In this document: piece by piece, positions 53,740 to 61,440 of the stretch | Layout of the letters: each line of letters opens with the position of its first letter | Position numbering within the stretch: the stretch's first letter is position 1 | Assembly (NCBI GenBank): GCA_003561215.1 | Contig: PWXG01000060.1 | Span: 1 to 64,000 of the forward strand | Direction: 5' to 3' | Length of the DNA stretch: 64,000 bases | DNA from: Thermotogales bacterium | Lineage (GTDB): Bacteria > Thermotogota > Thermotogae > Petrotogales > Kosmotogaceae | Program-made: the position numbers and the translations under genes | Notes under the pieces: model-generated | The model's database searches: none | Seen by the model: only the letters and a program-made list of their open reading frames with translations | Told to the model about the DNA's origin: nothing

Positions 53740-54562
53740 GGAACTTGGAGTCAGCTTGCGAGAACAGGCAACAACACCAAGTGTAGTAATATATGAGGTT
53801 GTAAGAACATATAATGCTTTGCCTTTTGCTCTGAAGCGGCACTTCCAACGATTGAAGCTTTCTGCCAAACTACTCGATATATCCATGCCGATGGGTTTTT
53901 CTCAGCTTGTAAAACTTGTCAACGAAGGGATTTCCAGGAATCATCCCAAGACACGAACACGCGAAATACAGATACGAGTGACAGTTTTTGAGACGTCTCA
54001 GAAGAACGCGAGATTCATGCTAGGATTTAGCGACCTTCCGGAGCTTTCCATAGACATATATGAACTTGGAGTGCGAGTAGGCATCTCTCCTTTTGTGAAA
54101 CCTTCTGCTGCGCTTGTCAACCCTGTGATAAAGACCCCGGGTCTTCCCTGGATCGTTCTGACAAGGCGCACACTTGGTGACAATTATGATCTGATAATGC
54201 TGAACGAGTCAGGAAATGTCTGCGAGGGTTCCTTCTCGAGTCTCTTCATTGTAAAGGATGAGCACCTCGTGACACCGGACACAAACTCGGGCGTCTTGCC
54301 GGGTATCACGAGACAACTCGTGATGAAACTGGCCAGATCAATGGAGGTTCCTGTGGAGGAGCGCCCGGTGAAGAGCTGGGAATTGTTTGCAGCAGATGAA
54401 GCTTTTCTGACTCACACCAGTGCAGGAATAGTCCCTGTGAGAAAAATAATGGACCATGTAATCATAGAAGACTTCACAGATGGACTCACACGTCTGCTTC
54501 TCGACAACTTCGAGGGCTTCATCATGACCGACGAAGAGAATTGGGTCGGGGTTGAACAGTGA
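53702..54562 (+). CDS. Class IV aminotransferase (BCAT/4-amino-4-deoxychorismate lyase type)
   Basis: A 286-residue fold-type IV PLP enzyme. VIYEVVRTYNALPFALKRHF at the N-terminus, IKTPGLPWIVLTRR (likely PLP lysine), LNESGNVCEGSFSSLFI with the conserved Glu, GVLPGITRQLVMKLA and FLTHTSAGIVPVRKI. Substrate is uncertain: branched-chain amino acids, D-alanine and aminodeoxychorismate enzymes share these motifs. GGGGAGGGG lies well before ATG 53702; the gene overlaps mtaB by 38 bases and the DUF721 gene by four. Confidence 0.88.
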   Translation: MDHFISDQWLSDEELGVSLREQATTPSVVIYEVVRTYNALPFALKRHFQRLKLSAKLLDISMPMGFSQLVKLVNEGISRNHPKTRTREIQIRVTVFETSQKNARFMLGFSDLPELSIDIYELGVRVGISPFVKPSAALVNPVIKTPGLPWIVLTRRTLGDNYDLIMLNESGNVCEGSFSSLFIVKDEHLVTPDTNSGVLPGITRQLVMKLARSMEVPVEERPVKSWELFAADEAFLTHTSAGIVPVRKIMDHVIIEDFTDGLTRLLLDNFEGFIMTDEENWVGVEQ

Positions 54563-54891
54563 GGAAGAGCTACGATACCTTCAAGAATGTTTTTGACTCT
54601 CTCAGCATGAGAAGTAGTTTTTTTGGCAAGCTGAGAGTTCTGACCCTGAGGAAAAGGTGGCATATGCTCGTAGGGGAAGCAATTTCAAGGCGCAGCAGGA
54701 TTCACGATTATCGTAATGGTGTCCTTTATGTTGCCGTAACTGAAGGTCTTTGGGCGTACGAGATAAGTCTTCACAAGAAGGCGCTGAAGGAAAGGCTTAA
54801 CGAAGAATTGGGCGCACAGATAATCAAGAGCATAAGAGTCATCATCGAACCCACCCACAATACGGAGGAATCAGATGAAAAACAGGTATGA
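54559..54891 (+). CDS. DUF721/DciA-like protein
   Basis: A 110-residue protein whose first ~85 residues fit DUF721: RVLTLRKRWHMLVGEAISRR (the W..LVG core) and YRNGVLYVAVTEGLWAYEIS. DciA proteins of this family load the replicative helicase in many bacteria lacking DnaC; genes of the family often lie beside gyrB or recF, as here. GTG start overlaps the aminotransferase stop (GTGA) and its end overlaps gyrB by 17 bases. Confidence 0.85.
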   Translation: MRKSYDTFKNVFDSLSMRSSFFGKLRVLTLRKRWHMLVGEAISRRSRIHDYRNGVLYVAVTEGLWAYEISLHKKALKERLNEELGAQIIKSIRVIIEPTHNTEESDEKQV

Positions 54892-56770
54892 CGCGCAGAG
54901 TATAAAGATCCTAAAGGGACTCGACCCCGTTCGCAAGCGTCCGAGCATGTATATCGGTTCGACGGGAAGGGCGGGGCTTCATCATCTCGTTTATGAAGTG
55001 GTTGACAACAGCATCGATGAGGTTATGGCCGGCTATGCCAGTGAGATACTTATTGAGATCCGTGAAGACATATCGGTGCGAGTTAAGGACAACGGCAGAG
55101 GCATACCTATCGAGACACATCCTGACACAAACACGAGTGCGCTGGAAGTGGTCATGACCACACTTCACGCAGGCGGCAAGTTCTCGGAGGATTCTTACAA
55201 GATAAGCGGCGGTCTACACGGAGTAGGTGTTTCGGTCGTTAACGCTCTTTCAGAATGGTGCGAAGTCAGAGTCCACAGAGATGGTAAATACTTCCGACAG
55301 GTATACGAGCGAGGGAGAGCAGTCACTCCTGTTGAGGAAGCAGGCGAGAGCAACGGCAATGGAACTGAGACCATTTTCAGAGCTGATCCCCAGGTTTTCT
55401 CCTCGATAGACTTCGATTTTGATATACTTGACTCCCGTTTTCGAGAACTCGCTTACCTCAATCCAGAAGCAACCATAGTGTTTAACGATCACAGAATCGA
55501 TGAATCTCGCACATATCATTATGAAGGCGGAATAGCTGAGTACGTTAAGCATATGAATCGTTCCAGAAGAACACTCCAGAAACACCCGTTCTTCATTGAA
55601 GGCCTCCATAACGGAATAAAGGTACAGCTTGCCATTCAGTACAGCTCCGCTTATGATGAGCAAATTATCTGCTTTGCAAACAACATAAAGACTGTTGAAG
55701 GTGGCACACACTTGACCGCACTCAAGACTGTCCTTACGAAACTGATGAACGATACTGCACGGAAACTAAACATACTCAAGGACAAAGACCAGAATCTCCA
55801 GGGAGAAGACGTCAGAGAAGGACTGACTGCTGTTCTTAGCATCTTTCTGAAAGACCCACAGTTTGAAGGGCAGACAAAGGCAAAGCTGGGAAATGAAGAA
55901 GCTTACGAAGCTGTCATCAAGGTTGTCAGGGAACGCCTGGAGGAAGTTTTTGACTACAATCAGAAAGAAGCAAAAGCGATAATCAGCAAAGCTGTCGAAG
56001 CGGCGAAAGCGAGGTTAGCTGCAAAACGAGCCCGGGAGCTTGTAAGGCGAAAGAACATACTTGAAAACACCGCGCTCCCCGGAAAACTGGCGGACTGCAT
56101 CTCTCAGGATCTCGAAGCAACCGAGCTGTTCATCGTGGAAGGAGATTCCGCGGGCGGTTCTTCAAAGGAAGCTCGCGATAGGAACTTTCAGGCAATTCTC
56201 CCCCTCAGGGGGAAAATCCTGAATGTTGAGAAAGCTGGGTTTGAAAAGCTTTTGAAGAATGAGCAGATCCACAACATCATCGTTGCCGTCGGTACAGGCG
56301 TAGGGGATGACTGTGACCTCGGTAAACTCAGATATGGAAAGATCGTGATCATGACGGATGCCGATGTTGACGGTGCTCACATTCGAACCCTCCTGCTCAC
56401 ATTGTTCTACAGGTATATGACTCCTCTAATATCAGAAGGACGAGTTTTCATTGCGCAGGCCCCTCTGTACAAGCTTGAACTGGGCAGGAAGAAGCTTTAC
56501 CTCTATTCCGATGAGGAGCTTCAGCGCTTCTTGAAGGAGAACCCTGATAAGCGGTATTCAATGCAGATGTACAAAGGATTAGGAGAGATGAATCCTGAAC
56601 AGCTTTGGGAGACAACAATGGATCCAACGCGTCGAAAGCTCTTGAGAATCGAAATGGAGGATGCTGAAGTCGCAGATAGCATTTTCACTATTCTTATGGG
56701 AAACGAAGTCGGACAGCGGCGGGAGTTTATTCAGCGACATGCCCTGTCTATTTCCAATCTGGATGTCTAG
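54875..56770 (+). CDS. gyrB: DNA gyrase subunit B
   Basis: A 631-residue GHKL-type gyrase B. ATP-binding motifs LVYEVVDNSIDE, VKDNGRGIPIETH, HAGGKFSEDSYKISGGLHGV; TOPRIM EGDSAGGSSKEARDR and TDADVDGAHIRTLLLT; C-terminal KGLGEMNPEQLWETTMDP. With GyrA (not in the window) it introduces negative supercoils. Length is typical of the short bacterial form. GGAGGAATCAG precedes ATG. Confidence 0.97.
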   Translation: MKNRYDAQSIKILKGLDPVRKRPSMYIGSTGRAGLHHLVYEVVDNSIDEVMAGYASEILIEIREDISVRVKDNGRGIPIETHPDTNTSALEVVMTTLHAGGKFSEDSYKISGGLHGVGVSVVNALSEWCEVRVHRDGKYFRQVYERGRAVTPVEEAGESNGNGTETIFRADPQVFSSIDFDFDILDSRFRELAYLNPEATIVFNDHRIDESRTYHYEGGIAEYVKHMNRSRRTLQKHPFFIEGLHNGIKVQLAIQYSSAYDEQIICFANNIKTVEGGTHLTALKTVLTKLMNDTARKLNILKDKDQNLQGEDVREGLTAVLSIFLKDPQFEGQTKAKLGNEEAYEAVIKVVRERLEEVFDYNQKEAKAIISKAVEAAKARLAAKRARELVRRKNILENTALPGKLADCISQDLEATELFIVEGDSAGGSSKEARDRNFQAILPLRGKILNVEKAGFEKLLKNEQIHNIIVAVGTGVGDDCDLGKLRYGKIVIMTDADVDGAHIRTLLLTLFYRYMTPLISEGRVFIAQAPLYKLELGRKKLYLYSDEELQRFLKENPDKRYSMQMYKGLGEMNPEQLWETTMDPTRRKLLRIEMEDAEVADSIFTILMGNEVGQRREFIQRHALSISNLDV

Positions 56771-56772
56771 TA

Positions 56773-57408
56773 ATGGAGCATAGAGCGAATCTTGCTCTGT
56801 TTCTCGTCGCCGTATTTTGCATATGGTGTCTGATATCTTTTGCCACCAGCGTTTTGTTCTACGATGTTTCCGAAATCAGAGTAAGTGTCATTGACACGCA
56901 TACAAGGGAAGTACGTTTTCCGACAGTCATGGGTGTTTCTAGGAGTCCTGTTATAATTGTCCCGGCAACAAGTGAACCTGTCGGAGGAGACCGCTTCCTA
57001 ATAAAGGAAGCTGTCTTCGTAACCCATTTCCAGGATCGACATTATTGGGTTTCGGAAGACCTCATCATAACTGATTTCGTGAGGCCTGGTGAGCTAAGGG
57101 ATGTTCCGGTTGTCTCCGGCGTTTCCTTCATACTGGAGGGGGGAGAGTTCAAGGTAGTCTCAGATATACAGAAGGAATTGCTGGTTCATGTAAAAAGACT
57201 TCTTTCTGATGGTAAAATCTGGAGTATAGTTTCTCATGTTGATCTCGTGAACGGTTACATTCTTCTGAAACGAGGAATCCAAATAACTGTATTTGATTGG
57301 GAGAAGTTGAGCAAGAGCACTGAGGCGTTGTATGACCTGTCCCTTACTGCACTGGACAAGACAGAGTTCTTGTTCCTGGGTGAAGGTAGACTTTTGAGAG
57401 TGAGGTGA
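56773..57408 (+). CDS. Membrane-anchored FtsQ/DivIB-like protein (inferred)
   Basis: A 211-residue protein with a short N-terminus, one membrane helix (about 8-29), and an extracytoplasmic domain. Straight after the helix, VSEIRVSVIDT resembles the first strand of a POTRA domain; YWVSEDLIITDFVRPGELRD then VPVVSGVSF and VNGYILLKRGIQITV recall the beta domain of FtsQ (aspartate or glutamate followed by a leucine-rich PLLSG). It lies directly before ftsA-ftsZ, where ftsQ usually is, and starts two bases after the gyrB stop. Sequence similarity is faint; position and topology carry the call. Confidence 0.68.
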   Translation: MEHRANLALFLVAVFCIWCLISFATSVLFYDVSEIRVSVIDTHTREVRFPTVMGVSRSPVIIVPATSEPVGGDRFLIKEAVFVTHFQDRHYWVSEDLIITDFVRPGELRDVPVVSGVSFILEGGEFKVVSDIQKELLVHVKRLLSDGKIWSIVSHVDLVNGYILLKRGIQITVFDWEKLSKSTEALYDLSLTALDKTEFLFLGEGRLLRVR

Positions 57409-57413
57409 AATAG

Positions 57414-58709
57414 ATGCCGAGGGGGAGAGATTACGTTGTCTCCATCGATGTGGGTACTAATACCCTTAAGGGCGTTGTCGTTAGTATCGATTCCTCTAAC
57501 CAAATAGCACTTGAGGCGTACGGAAGTGTCAAAGCAGTTGGAATTGACAAAGGGGAAGTGAGGGATGCTGTCGCCATGAAGCATTCAATTCAGAAGCTTA
57601 TTGAAGATTTGACTGGTCAGGTCGGGAAGAAAGAGATTGAAGCTGATTTTAGGATAAGCTTCACAAATGGCGATTATTCTGTGTTTTCCGAAAGCATAGA
57701 GGAGGTTATCTCAGAAGATCGTCCAACACTCGTCAGGCAGGAAATACTCGACACGATGATGACTCGAATCAGGAAAGAGAAGCTTCAGACAGGGAACACT
57801 AACGTACACAAGAACTATGTAAGGAAATTCATTTTGGATGACGAAAAGGTTGTCTTCAACCCAGTTGATATGGTGGCAAAAAAGCTGAATGTCGAGATGG
57901 TCTTTGTATCGACCGAGGGAAAGTCCGCAGAAGTTTTCAAGCGACTCTTCGAAGAGCTTTTTGGAACGGAAGACTTCACTGTCTCGCCATCGCTGATTTC
58001 TGGAGCAGATGCTGTCCTTACAGACACGGAAAAGCAACATGGAGTTGTTTGCGTTATACTTGGGCACGGGTTTTCGGAGATGGTTATCTACAAGGAGAAT
58101 CTGCCTGTGCACATAGACAGGATTCCTCTTGGCATTCGACACATAGTGAGAGATATTGCACTTGTTTTGGGAACCTCCCAGGACGAAGCTGAACGTCTCC
58201 TTGTCACCTACGGACATGCATCGATGCACCCACCGGCAGAGGAGAGTGTTGTCGAATACTTCGGCCTAGATGAGCGGACGAGGAAAAGAGTCACGGTGAA
58301 GAAGCTTTCCACGATAATCTACGCAAGGGTTAAGGAACTGCTGAACAAGATCAGAAAGGAAGTACAGCTATTTCTGCTCAATAACCCGGAGCATGGCGAG
58401 GAAGGAATACCCGGCGGTGTAGTGTTTACCGGTGGAGGGGCAAAGCTTCGAGGACTGTGCGACAGTGGAGTGGAATCGTTGAAAATGCCGGTGCGTGTCG
58501 GAACTTATGAAACGAGCTTCAACCCGAGAATTGAGAACGGCCACGATGTGGTAAATGATCCGATATTCGGACCTTGTCTCGGGAATCTTATTGAGCATGA
58601 TGAAATGGAAGGAGAATACGCCGAAGCAATGGGCATGGAGAAAAGAAGAAAAGGCTTCGGGTCATTCATAAAATCCCTCTTCTTCGGAGGTGCTGAGGAT
58701 GAGCTTTGA
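57414..58709 (+). CDS. ftsA: Cell division protein FtsA
   Basis: A 431-residue actin-like protein that anchors FtsZ to the membrane. N-terminal VVSIDVGTNTLKGVVV, the 1C domain in the middle, VCVILGHGFSEMVIYKENLP, PGGVVFTGGGAKLRGL adenosine motif and a C-terminal amphipathic helix (KGFGSFIKSLFFGG) for membrane targeting. GAGGTGAAATAG precedes ATG; it overlaps ftsZ by 11 bases. Confidence 0.95.
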   Translation: MPRGRDYVVSIDVGTNTLKGVVVSIDSSNQIALEAYGSVKAVGIDKGEVRDAVAMKHSIQKLIEDLTGQVGKKEIEADFRISFTNGDYSVFSESIEEVISEDRPTLVRQEILDTMMTRIRKEKLQTGNTNVHKNYVRKFILDDEKVVFNPVDMVAKKLNVEMVFVSTEGKSAEVFKRLFEELFGTEDFTVSPSLISGADAVLTDTEKQHGVVCVILGHGFSEMVIYKENLPVHIDRIPLGIRHIVRDIALVLGTSQDEAERLLVTYGHASMHPPAEESVVEYFGLDERTRKRVTVKKLSTIIYARVKELLNKIRKEVQLFLLNNPEHGEEGIPGGVVFTGGGAKLRGLCDSGVESLKMPVRVGTYETSFNPRIENGHDVVNDPIFGPCLGNLIEHDEMEGEYAEAMGMEKRRKGFGSFIKSLFFGGAEDEL

Positions 58710-59745
58710 GATAGATTACGGACAGAGCAAAGATAGCATGAGACTGCCTACCATAAAGGTCATCGGCGTTGGGGGAGCCGGTGGAAACGCCATAAACAGA
58801 ATGATAACTGATGGTATACACGGTGTTACCTTCATTGCTGCGAATACGGATGTTCAGGTACTGGAGAGCAACAATGCGGAGTTCAAGATTCAACTGGGAA
58901 GTCATCTTACACGAGGACTAGGCGCTGGGGGGAACCCCGAAGTCGGCGAGCATGCCGCTGAGGAAAGCATAGACGAAATCCGCGAGTCACTCCAGGACAC
59001 TGATCTTCTATTCATAACTGCGGGAATGGGCGGAGGTACAGGAACAGGCGCTGCTCCGATCGTTGCTTCTGTTGCTCGAGACATGGGAATACTAACCGTT
59101 GCAGTAGTAACCACTCCGTTCTTCTTCGAGGGAAATACTAGGCTTAGAGTTGCAAAGGAGGGGCTCAGGAGACTTCGAAAGTCTGTTGACACGTTGATTC
59201 GGATTTCTAACAATAAGCTCCTTCAGGAATTGCCCCCTAATACTTCTATAGTGGAAGCGTTTGCCAAGGCTGACGGGACGCTTCATCACGGGATAAAGGG
59301 CATATCGGAACTCATAACAAGAAGAGGCTACATAAACCTCGATTTTGCGGACGTCGATTCCGTGCTCAGAAACGCGGGAACAGCAATGCTTGGAATCGGT
59401 GTGGGATCAGGTGAAGATCGCGCGGAGATCGCGGCTCGACAGGCGATGGAGAGCAGACTACTTGAAAAGCCCCTTGACAATGCGACCGGAATCATCCTTA
59501 ATGTCTCTGCAAAGAACGTGACCCTAAAAGAGATGAACCTCGCTGCCGCCATTGTTAGGCAGAACTGCAGTGAAGACGCAGATGTTAAGCTGGGTCTTAT
59601 TGTAGACTCCGAGATGGATGGCGAAGACTTGCACATAACCCTGATAGCCGCAGGACTGGAGATGGATGAAGGCGAACTTCTCGGAGAAGCTACAGATATT
59701 CCTGCTATATATCGTTTTGGACTTGACAGCCAGGAGGAAGAATAG
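58699..59745 (+). CDS. ftsZ: Cell division protein FtsZ
   Basis: A 348-residue tubulin-like GTPase forming the division ring. VIGVGGAGGNAINRMI, the tubulin signature GMGGGTGTGAAP (GGGTGTG 111-117), NTRLRVAKEGLRRL and the T7-loop region NLDFADVD are intact. The C-terminal linker is very short, and the end (TDIPAIYRFGLDSQEEE) holds an IPAIYRF peptide like the conserved tail that binds FtsA. GGAGGTGCTGAGG precedes ATG 58699; the earlier start at 58690 overlaps that site. Confidence 0.97.
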   Translation: MSFEIDYGQSKDSMRLPTIKVIGVGGAGGNAINRMITDGIHGVTFIAANTDVQVLESNNAEFKIQLGSHLTRGLGAGGNPEVGEHAAEESIDEIRESLQDTDLLFITAGMGGGTGTGAAPIVASVARDMGILTVAVVTTPFFFEGNTRLRVAKEGLRRLRKSVDTLIRISNNKLLQELPPNTSIVEAFAKADGTLHHGIKGISELITRRGYINLDFADVDSVLRNAGTAMLGIGVGSGEDRAEIAARQAMESRLLEKPLDNATGIILNVSAKNVTLKEMNLAAAIVRQNCSEDADVKLGLIVDSEMDGEDLHITLIAAGLEMDEGELLGEATDIPAIYRFGLDSQEEE

Positions 59746-59748
59746 AAG

Positions 59749-61440
59749 ATGAAGGTTTATAAGCGGCTTGGCGAGCTTCTCGAAGAGCGCGGATTGATCA
59801 ACTCGGAGGCTCTGAATCAGGCTGTGTCGATTCAGAAGAAAGTTGGTAAACCGCTCGGCGAAGTGCTTGTCAGTATGGGACTGATTGCGTGGGAAGACAT
59901 ATACAATGCTCTTTCCAAGCAATATGGTCTTGATCTTCTTGAGGATACACCCAACATCATCCCGTCCGACCTTCTCAGGATGGTACCGAAGTCTGTCGCA
60001 AGCAGACTTAGTATAGTCCCTCTTGAGTACACTCCCGAGGACGATACGTTGAGAGTTGTCACTACAGATGTGTTGAAGGTTCCGCAGATCGAGCGAGAGT
60101 TGACCTTTCTAACTGGGCACTCGATCGAGACGCTACTTACGACTCCTCCGATTTTCCAGACAATCTACAAGACTTCATATGAAGACACTACTTCCAGCGA
60201 GATCATTGAACAGACGTTCCAGATAGATGAAGTAGAAAGCGAGAAACATGACGCGGAAGCCAAGGAAGGCGAAGAAACACCCGTCGGGAAGTTCATCAAC
60301 TCTCTTATAGATTCTGCAATCAGGAGTGAAGCGAGCGATATTCACCTTGAGCCATATGAGAAGGTCGCGGTAGGACGCATCAGGGTAGACGGCATTCTTA
60401 GACCAATTCTCAAGTACCCCAGAAAGGCGCACAACAGTGTCGCTTCTCGAATAAAGGTCATTTCGGGACTCGATATCTCCGAAAGAAGACTTCCTCAAGA
60501 TGGGAAGTTCTATATGCGGAGAAGCAGCGAGCAGTATGACTTCAGGGTTTCCACCATGCCGACGGTCTACGGTGAAAAGGTCGTTATGAGGATTTTGAAA
60601 GTGTCCAACTCGAAGCTCAAGCTTGAAGCGCTTGGCCTGACGAAGTACAACCGTGAGAGATTCGAAGGACTGATCAACTCTCCGTATGGGATTGTGCTCC
60701 TGTCTGGTCCCACAGGGAGCGGTAAGTCAACAACGCTCGTAGCTGTTCTGAACGAGATCACTTCAGAGAAAGTGAATGTTCTTACTGCTGAAGATCCGGT
60801 TGAATATACTATAGAGGGAGTAACGCAGTGTCAGGTGAATCCCGAGATAGGTCTGACTTTTGCGAATTACCTTCGCTCCTTTCTTAGACAGGACCCTGAT
60901 ATTATCATGGTGGGAGAAATTCGCGACAGTGAGACCGCTCAGCTCGCAATTGAAGCCTCTCTGACAGGACATCTTGTTCTTTCTACGATACACACTAACA
61001 CTGCTTCTGGGGCTGTTGCCAGATTAGTCAATATGGGAACAGATCCCCATCTTCTGGCCACATCTATGGATGGAGTGGTAGGGCAGAGGTTAGTAAGAAA
61101 GTTATGTGCTAACTGCAAATCAAGGATTCCGATGCGAGACAGACTGGAGGAAGTAGCAAAGAAACTCTTTCCTGACAGTGACGAGTATCACGAATTCATA
61201 CCCGGTCAGGGTTGTCATGAGTGCGCGGGTACCGGCTACAAAGGACGAACGGGGATTCACGAAGTTCTGATCATGAATAGCAAGATTCGCGAGCTGGTAA
61301 GGAGCTCAGCTTCCGAACAGGAGATTCTTAATGCCGCAAGAAACACCGGGATGAGAACGCTTTTTGAAGACGGAGTATTCAAAGTCATAGACGGAACAAC
61401 TTCATTTGAAGAGATAAACAGGGTAGTTATTGACGTCTAG
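59749..61440 (+). CDS. pilB: Type IV pilus assembly ATPase PilB
   Basis: A 563-residue GspE/PilB-type secretion ATPase. N-terminal MshEN domain (about 5-140: RLGELLEERGLINSEALNQA, VPKSVASRLSIVPLEYTPED), then the catalytic domain with Walker A GPTGSGKST (320-328), Asp box, Walker B VGEIRDSETAQ, His box GHLVLSTIHTN and a four-cysteine zinc site (CANC ... CHEC). MshEN domains often bind cyclic di-GMP, which would link it to the diguanylate cyclase at 4.7-7.4 kb, by inference only. Three bases after ftsZ. No other pilus genes are in the window. Confidence 0.94.
   Translation: MKVYKRLGELLEERGLINSEALNQAVSIQKKVGKPLGEVLVSMGLIAWEDIYNALSKQYGLDLLEDTPNIIPSDLLRMVPKSVASRLSIVPLEYTPEDDTLRVVTTDVLKVPQIERELTFLTGHSIETLLTTPPIFQTIYKTSYEDTTSSEIIEQTFQIDEVESEKHDAEAKEGEETPVGKFINSLIDSAIRSEASDIHLEPYEKVAVGRIRVDGILRPILKYPRKAHNSVASRIKVISGLDISERRLPQDGKFYMRRSSEQYDFRVSTMPTVYGEKVVMRILKVSNSKLKLEALGLTKYNRERFEGLINSPYGIVLLSGPTGSGKSTTLVAVLNEITSEKVNVLTAEDPVEYTIEGVTQCQVNPEIGLTFANYLRSFLRQDPDIIMVGEIRDSETAQLAIEASLTGHLVLSTIHTNTASGAVARLVNMGTDPHLLATSMDGVVGQRLVRKLCANCKSRIPMRDRLEEVAKKLFPDSDEYHEFIPGQGCHECAGTGYKGRTGIHEVLIMNSKIRELVRSSASEQEILNAARNTGMRTLFEDGVFKVIDGTTSFEEINRVVIDV

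Follow-up and report, generated by a model that had tools for sequence, protein, structure and literature searches.

A DUF4894 gene between gyrB and ftsA

The DNA analysed here is a stretch of 64,000 nucleotides (the window) from a Kosmotogaceae-type Thermotogota genome (G000); the nearest named locus, from a Kosmotogaceae bacterium, encodes an FtsA 97% identical to that of the window. On the + strand, an open reading frame (ORF) running from ATG to TGA at exactly 56773-57408 encodes a protein of 211 amino acids. We refer to this DUF4894 gene and its orthologues as X, and to the window's own family as f1. The features of the locus, with the evidence for each, are listed below.

54875-56770, + strand: gyrB, 2 bases upstream of X, named from its translation and from matches in relatives
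56773-57408, + strand: X, a DUF4894 gene and proposed POTRA-less ftsQ (ORF reading; DUF4894 E 3.6e-18; predicted FtsQ/DivIB beta-like fold)
56773-56862, + strand: predicted N-terminal membrane helix, residues 1-30, with few cytoplasmic residues (model helix 2-30; hydropathy and charge)
56863-57006, + strand: short variable linker, residues 31-78, where relatives carry a POTRA or POTRA-sized region (low pLDDT; no profile match with the N-terminal region of relatives; helix-to-YW distance)
57007-57405, + strand: predicted FtsQ/DivIB-type beta domain (DUF4894), residues 79-211 (pLDDT; structural match to 6h9o_A)
57358-57405, + strand: conserved C-terminal hairpin, residues 196-211 (lowest mean entropy; structural alignments end at or near FtsQ residue 256)
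57414-58709, + strand: ftsA, 5 bases downstream of X (FtsA TIGR01174, 185.9 bits, over cut-off)
58690-59745, + strand: ftsZ (TIGR00065, 375.8 bits, over cut-off)

A Pfam scan placed residues 84-211 of X in DUF4894 (PF16235; 66.6 bits against a cut-off of 28, E 3.6e-18), the one other match being a sub-threshold hit to B3/4. Relative to a congener (locus L086), X is 67.8% identical with a dN/dS of ~0.10, at a dS of 2.1 that is near saturation. The frame is real, far beyond chance. FtsA and FtsZ of the window exceed NCBI equivalog cut-offs; as listed, ftsA overlaps ftsZ, which is followed by a GspE/PilB-like gene named by reading. Across window positions 54559-59745, identity to the same congener is 97.4% for FtsA, 98.0% for FtsZ, 92% for GyrB and 61.8% for DciA; DciA is as variable as X in this comparison.

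The preliminary description of this DNA had proposed a bitopic protein in the place of ftsQ. The layout is borne out, a single hydrophobic helix (model residues 2-30) lying between a very short N-terminus and ~180 outer residues, and so is the place, the gene ending only 5 bases before ftsA.

Occurrence of X across Thermotogota

We surveyed 103 genomes of the phylum and 14 control genomes. DUF4894 matched 80 of the 103 at E <= 0.01, with 63 over the cut-off; Thermotoga maritima was the only match among the controls. A profile of 43 X proteins, POTRA-sized ones included (A1), reached 91 of the 103 genomes at E <= 0.1, 86 of them at E <= 3e-19, with the proviso that its rows come from surveyed genomes, which therefore match by construction. 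In the window's own genome A1 matches X at E 1.0e-42, X being itself a row of A1.

The 14 genomes of family f2 without a strong A1 match were read at ftsA, where all 14 carry an ORF of 152-165 amino acids between gyrB and ftsA, each with an N-terminal hydrophobic stretch. Profile comparison of ten of these ORFs, aligned as a set, gave E 2.1e-11 with the X proteins from genus g9 and E 1.1e-8 with the combined f8, f10 and f11 set; compared with the window family, the same ten gave no direct profile match (1.4%). In scans of three proteins from f2 and one from f11, no Pfam family passed its cut-off. In one further genome (G015), the start of X lies right behind gyrB and is cut by a contig end. 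We found ftsA in 101 of the 103 genomes, and the two without it (G031 and G072, 78 and 81% complete) are also without X. By A1 profile and locus reading combined, X accompanies ftsA in 101 of 101 ftsA-bearing genomes.

The membrane topology is similarly uniform. A 19-residue segment over 1.6 in hydropathy begins within the first 45 residues in 85 of 86 family proteins, the exception reaching 1.48. A second such segment is present in 5 of the 86, and net charge before the helix is 0 or more in all 86. X is predicted to have a single N-terminal membrane helix, with the C-terminus probably outside.

Gene order around X

Gene order was counted in 69 X loci (68 genomes, one of them twice). ftsA lies within ~100 bases downstream in 61; of the other eight, seven belong to f7 and one is at a contig end. 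The immediate upstream neighbour is gyrB in 58, that is, in all but two loci of f5 and nine of f9. X also adjoins ftsA in 17 of 17 further loci (14 from f2 and three others). In f7, ftsA-ftsZ stand elsewhere, behind a thymidylate-kinase-like gene (named by reading), and X stays with gyrB.

The order murB-ftsQ-ftsA-ftsZ is the textbook position of ftsQ. The f5 locus L099 reads murB-X-ftsA-ftsZ, with MurB_C matched at E 3.8e-33, and the f5 locus L100 has the same order, with a murB that is truncated at the contig end and was identified by reading. X occupies the position before ftsA that ftsQ holds in the dcw cluster.

Many genomes carry a block of dciA-gyrB-X-ftsA-ftsZ-gspE/pilB (window 54559-61440; L047-L085), which brings a replication gene, gyrase and division genes together.

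Predicted folds of X and of an f5 relative

The structural model of window X, built from 15 sequences (pLDDT 80.6, pTM 0.63), comprises a long N-terminal helix, a poorly predicted region at ~31-80 and a confident domain reaching residue 211. Block means of pLDDT are 46-60 over residues 31-80 and 82-94 from residue 81 onwards. In a Foldseek search of the PDB with this model, Geobacillus DivIB came first at a non-significant E of 0.099. VIA-align comparison with 532 chains returned FtsQ/DivIB for all top eight entries, with Z values of 7.8 (6h9o), 7.8 (8hhf), 7.7 (5z2w), 7.5 (8bh1), 7.5 (2vh2), 7.0 (2vh1), 5.7 (1yr1) and 5.4 (8p1u), followed by 4.0 for the next entry. The match to 6h9o_A spans 118 residues at an rmsd of 4.0; that to 8hhf has an rmsd of 13.3. 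According to the tool, Z values under 8 can reflect a common arrangement, and the best value for the window model, 7.8, falls below that level, so the weight of this comparison rests on the exclusive FtsQ/DivIB ranking. On this ranking, the predicted fold of window X contains the C-terminal beta domain of FtsQ.

For the f5 relative at L099, the model was built from 13 sequences (pLDDT 78.0, with mostly 50s and 60s in the POTRA region). Its first nine Foldseek rows are FtsQ/DivIB, at E 9.9e-6 to 1.1e-3, and the next row is at 0.22. Structural alignment to FtsQ/DivIB took in the POTRA and reached a best Z of 10.1, across 176 residues.

We also examined conservation along the chain. Of seven segments, the C-terminal hairpin (196-211) is the lowest in mean entropy at 2.41, nearly equalled by residues 151-175 at 2.45; the linker has a mean of 3.43, from 9 countable columns. 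The aligned chain ranges stop at FtsQ residues 253-256 in 2vh2, 2vh1 and 6h9o. By eye, the E. coli FtsB-contact residue Y248 has no visible counterpart in window X. Tyrosine or phenylalanine occupies window position 199 in 66 of 86 family proteins, which, again by eye, is not the place aligned to Y248.

Profile comparisons link X to FtsQ through intermediates

FtsQ is poorly conserved in sequence. We compared X profiles with a reference set of eight FtsQs (seven Verrucomicrobial, one from E. coli). Eleven POTRA-sized X proteins, f6 not among them, matched this set with a probability of 94.1% (E 1.2e-7, score 57.3, 183 columns), compared with a best score of 21.3 among 20 column shuffles, and matched the window family at 97.6% (E 4.2e-12, 201 columns). 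Family f5 alone matched both: the window family at 94.4% (E 8.6e-8) and the FtsQs at 90.8% (E 1.2e-6), the latter over 148 columns that cover the POTRA and the beginning of the beta domain. The other POTRA-sized families alone reached 67.9% (f6), 18.9% (f7) and 1.0% (f3 with f4) against FtsQ.

Compared directly with FtsQ, the window family showed no match beyond shuffles (0.5%; score 18.2, best shuffle 19.8), nor did f9 (0.3%) or f2 (0.0%) give a significant profile match. The combined f8, f10 and f11 set (6.9%; score 25.5 versus 15.8 for the best of 20 shuffles) and all 86 X proteins together (5.8%; 23.5 versus 13.7) scored higher than their shuffles, but with low probabilities. A1, with its 43 rows, matched five Verrucomicrobial FtsQs at 87.8% (E 3.3e-6). 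A PDB sequence search with the same profile yielded no FtsQ and chance matches only, the best being an acetylcholine receptor at E 0.034.

When the domains were split, the beta parts alone gave 97.7% between the window family and the POTRA-sized set and 89.1% between the POTRA-sized set and FtsQ, which indicates that the profile signal is carried by the beta parts. Since the window family has no direct match, its descent from FtsQ follows by transitivity, via intermediates and chiefly via two f5 genomes.

The POTRA is kept in f5 and missing from window X

The FtsQ-type POTRA model (PF08478, POTRA_1) gave some match at E <= 1 in 59 of the 103 genomes, two of them over cut-off, and many of these matches lie in long frames. 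The best belongs to f5 genome G004 (24.1 bits against a cut-off of 23) and the third best to f5 genome G003 (21.2 bits, same cut-off), each in the same open frame as DUF4894. When these two X products were scanned as proteins, POTRA_1 scored 22.7 and 19.4 bits (cut-off 23). The other eight of 10 POTRA-sized X proteins scanned did not match POTRA_1; two of those eight matched FtsQ_DivIB_C over the DUF4894 part at 19.0 and 15.1 bits (cut-off 21). The f5 orthologues therefore carry an FtsQ-type POTRA, as judged by the G004 match over cut-off and the predicted L099 fold, and window X does not. For f3, f4, f6 and f7, length and pattern suggest a POTRA.

The membrane helix and the YW motif of the beta domain are 77-106 residues apart in f3-f7, 65 in window X, 65-70 across the 15 proteins of f1, and 21-62 in f2 and f8-f11. 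Residues 30-80 of the window family gave a score of 11.8 against the N-terminal part of POTRA-sized relatives, compared with 12.9 for the best of 30 shuffles; a degenerate POTRA kept in f1 thus finds no support in profile similarity. For the POTRA-sized set, the POTRA part alone scored 18.3 against FtsQ, with a best of 30 shuffles of 18.2, and so is no match in its own right by this method. The preliminary description had seen local patterns of both POTRA and beta domains in window X. The beta patterns are upheld by the model and its eight top structural entries; the POTRA patterns fall away, given the low confidence over 31-80 and the lack of profile similarity.

Outgroup FtsQs carry a POTRA in 6 of 6 cases, making loss within the phylum the simple reading. 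An FtsA tree (60 rows, quick method) is in keeping with this as far as f5 goes, placing f5 outside all other Thermotogota with an SH-aLRT of 99, subject to a long-branch warning; the other deep forks are open, and the change count (2) cannot separate gain from loss. Because the f5 version of the same gene has a POTRA, its absence from window X does not sink the FtsQ identity. We place window X within the FtsQ line as a derived form, distinct from the canonical FtsQ with its two domains.

No other FtsQ was found

We searched for a competing FtsQ with PF03799 and POTRA_1. PF03799 matched neither the X protein nor, at E <= 10, anything in the window's own genome, and it was over cut-off in 0 of the 103 phylum genomes. 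Weak matches occurred in six genomes at seven places, in frames of ~500-1190 amino acids in five genomes and of 176 amino acids in one; none was judged to be FtsQ after frame inspection. PF03799 itself missed 5 of 5 Verrucomicrobial FtsQs at E 0.01 and found E. coli FtsQ at 99.4 bits. As it misses real FtsQs, its absence is not a fair exclusion and counts less against X than it might appear. The only POTRA_1 match in the window's own genome at E <= 1 is an Omp85/BamA protein in a separate 818-codon frame. X is not that kind of POTRA protein, with 211 amino acids and only the DUF4894 and sub-threshold B3/4 matches. The search for a clear FtsQ elsewhere in the genome, which the preliminary description had recommended, thus came back empty with these two models, PF03799 being a weak detector.

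Divisome partners

FtsK_alpha (PF17854), a single FtsK domain model, was found in 0 of the 103 Thermotogota genomes at E 0.001 and not in the T. maritima control, compared with 8 of the 14 control genomes. Judged by this one model, divisome recruitment in the phylum may do without FtsK.

The window's own genome encodes FtsW (E 6.1e-75) between murD-like and murG-like genes, followed by a murC-like gene (names by reading). Elsewhere in it, mraW is followed by a 97-amino-acid ORF with one hydrophobic stretch, in the FtsL slot, and then by an FtsI-type penicillin-binding protein (PBP), in which Pfam finds transpeptidase and dimerisation domains as well as PASTA below threshold. ORFs of 96-113 amino acids recur in this classical ftsL slot between mraW and the FtsI-type PBP (L141:7780-8073, on G000:C28; L142:5697-5987; L146:6285-6626), and the three scanned gave no Pfam family over cut-off.

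DivIC (FtsB) matched 100 of the 103 genomes, nearly always weakly and over cut-off in 1. That sole match (L125, G053:C49:757-978, 63.9 bits) comes from an 80%-complete genome of 240 contigs and may lie on a contaminating contig. Ten of 13 examined DivIC-match places precede a methyltransferase-like gene (one scanned: PF04445); among those ten, a miaA-like gene comes next in seven and an hfq-like gene is visible in five, as named by reading. The candidate FtsB/DivIC ORFs are ~67-113 amino acids long, with one hydrophobic stretch and a coiled coil (G000:C182:619-837, which is L162, and L149-L153, L155 and L158-L161).

Nine FtsB-like ORFs were scanned together. DivIC was the top family in seven, below cut-off, and in all nine the match ran from position 1 or 2 to 50-53 of 80. 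L153 and the genome's own copy at G000:C182:619-837, for which DivIC came second at 17.2 bits, cover positions 1-51. By comparison, E. coli FtsB residues 11-89 fill DivIC positions 1-79, and E. coli FtsB binds FtsQ through residues 64-87 (PMC6134095). If the Thermotogota ORFs are FtsB, the FtsQ-binding tail of the E. coli protein would correspond to the part that they lack. As the FtsB-like proteins match only about the first 52 of 80 DivIC positions, Thermotogota may lack the classical contact between FtsQ and FtsB. For E. coli, PMC10076392 describes recruitment of FtsBLQ by FtsK, in which residues of FtsQ are believed to face the periplasmic loops of FtsK, and a single beta sheet formed from the C-terminal parts of FtsQ, FtsB and FtsL.

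A proposed beta-domain FtsQ and its alternatives

Taken together, we consider it very likely that X is the Thermotogota FtsQ/DivIB, descended from a two-domain (POTRA plus beta) FtsQ whose POTRA was replaced by a short linker in the window lineage. This reading draws on homology via intermediates, predicted fold, gene order, distribution, shrinkage of the POTRA region and the lack of an FtsK_alpha match. The preliminary suggestion that X is the missing FtsQ of this group gains support in that no other FtsQ was found, the model contains the beta domain and f5 orthologues have an FtsQ-type POTRA.

We propose that X acts as a beta-domain-only FtsQ in an FtsK-less divisome. Window X would consist of a membrane anchor and a beta domain, which the helix would hold at the septum on the outer side of the membrane. 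Mainly through its conserved C-terminal hairpin, the beta domain could bind the FtsL-like ORF product from the mraW-ftsI slot and the FtsB-like ORF product. X would so hold and restrain the FtsW-FtsI septal peptidoglycan synthase, by analogy with E. coli FtsQ. In E. coli FtsQ, the POTRA is the part used for recruitment by FtsK; by the same analogy, X would be the beta-sheet half alone. In a phylum apparently without FtsK, recruitment must run differently, which could explain the loss of the POTRA; X might be recruited instead through its membrane helix, through FtsA-FtsZ or through FtsB/L. A stronger form, which we hold only tentatively and regard as rather doubtful, is an FtsQ both minimal and rewired: in the absence of FtsK, the POTRA would have become dispensable and eroded, the FtsB tail would have been lost, and the beta domain would contact FtsL/FtsB or FtsW-FtsI by a new interface. 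If true, this would be a natural experiment separating recruitment from regulation in FtsQ.

The truncated FtsB-like proteins also allow a different outcome, in which X descends from FtsQ and took on another envelope or division task after the loss of FtsK and of the classical FtsB tail, such as coupling to the toga or to FtsW-FtsI. Their DivIC matches end at positions 50-53, short of the E. coli FtsQ-binding part; X evolves faster than FtsA and FtsZ (67.8% versus 97.4% and 98.0%), although DciA, at 61.8%, does so too; and X is detached from ftsA, with gyrB, in f7. Such a change of task nevertheless seems improbable to us, given the strict co-occurrence of X with ftsA (101 of 101) and the hairpin matching the FtsB-binding edge, which is among the two most conserved segments.

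That X is an unrelated bitopic protein standing before ftsA by chance, its likeness to FtsQ reflecting a common beta arrangement, would fit the window family's lack of a significant direct FtsQ profile match, the Foldseek E of 0.099 and the absence of FtsQ from the PDB sequence search. We judge this very improbable, because f5 matches both FtsQ and the window family, carries a POTRA and sits in the murB-X-ftsA slot, and because the best structural matches of both models are FtsQ/DivIB. Barely credible is a split FtsQ, with X as the beta half and a separate POTRA protein elsewhere: it would account for the POTRA missing from window X, but the genome's only POTRA_1 match at E <= 1 is Omp85/BamA, and forms of one gene range from POTRA-sized to linker-sized across families.

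With X as the probable FtsQ, what looks like a gap in the division machinery of an entire phylum would be filled and DUF4894 would gain a proposed function. A single phylum where FtsK was not found holds two-domain, POTRA-sized and beta-only versions of the gene, so that the purpose of the POTRA and the minimal FtsQ become testable in a thermostable, structure-friendly system.

Comparison with known systems

A 2022 Nature Microbiology survey of dcw clusters may have named the X gene by position. A 2022 gene-order study (PMC8871954) joined a number of ftsQ groups on the strength of their location immediately upstream of ftsA; for unrelated reasons, its tree did not include Thermotogae. Our literature search found no title or abstract opening naming FtsQ in Thermotogota, and none on DUF4894. 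Window X is a member of DUF4894 (PF16235), a family with no assigned function. From profiles and predicted folds, we identify DUF4894 as a probable FtsQ beta domain and extend this assignment to relatives below the cut-off or without a Pfam match, f2 included.

Like FtsQ/DivIB (E. coli FtsQ; Geobacillus DivIB, PDB 1yr1), X is bitopic, with an N-terminal helix and the same predicted C-terminal outer beta fold. Its gene likewise stands directly before ftsA-ftsZ, behind murB in one X lineage, and is found with FtsW, an FtsI-type PBP, an ORF in the FtsL slot and an FtsB-like ORF. Unlike FtsQ/DivIB, window X has no POTRA, is not recognised by PF03799 and ends near FtsQ residue 256; the setting differs as well, the phylum of X having no FtsK_alpha match (PF17854).

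Chlamydial FtsQ (Ct764) is described in PMC4643143 as having no identifiable POTRA, as in window X, a likeness by description only. Its organism differs from the hosts of X in being FtsZ-less and having FtsK (PMC11975371). Going by Ct764 (PMC4643143), a POTRA-less FtsQ is thus not unprecedented, Chlamydia having provided an earlier case; it is the set of partners around X that is unusual.
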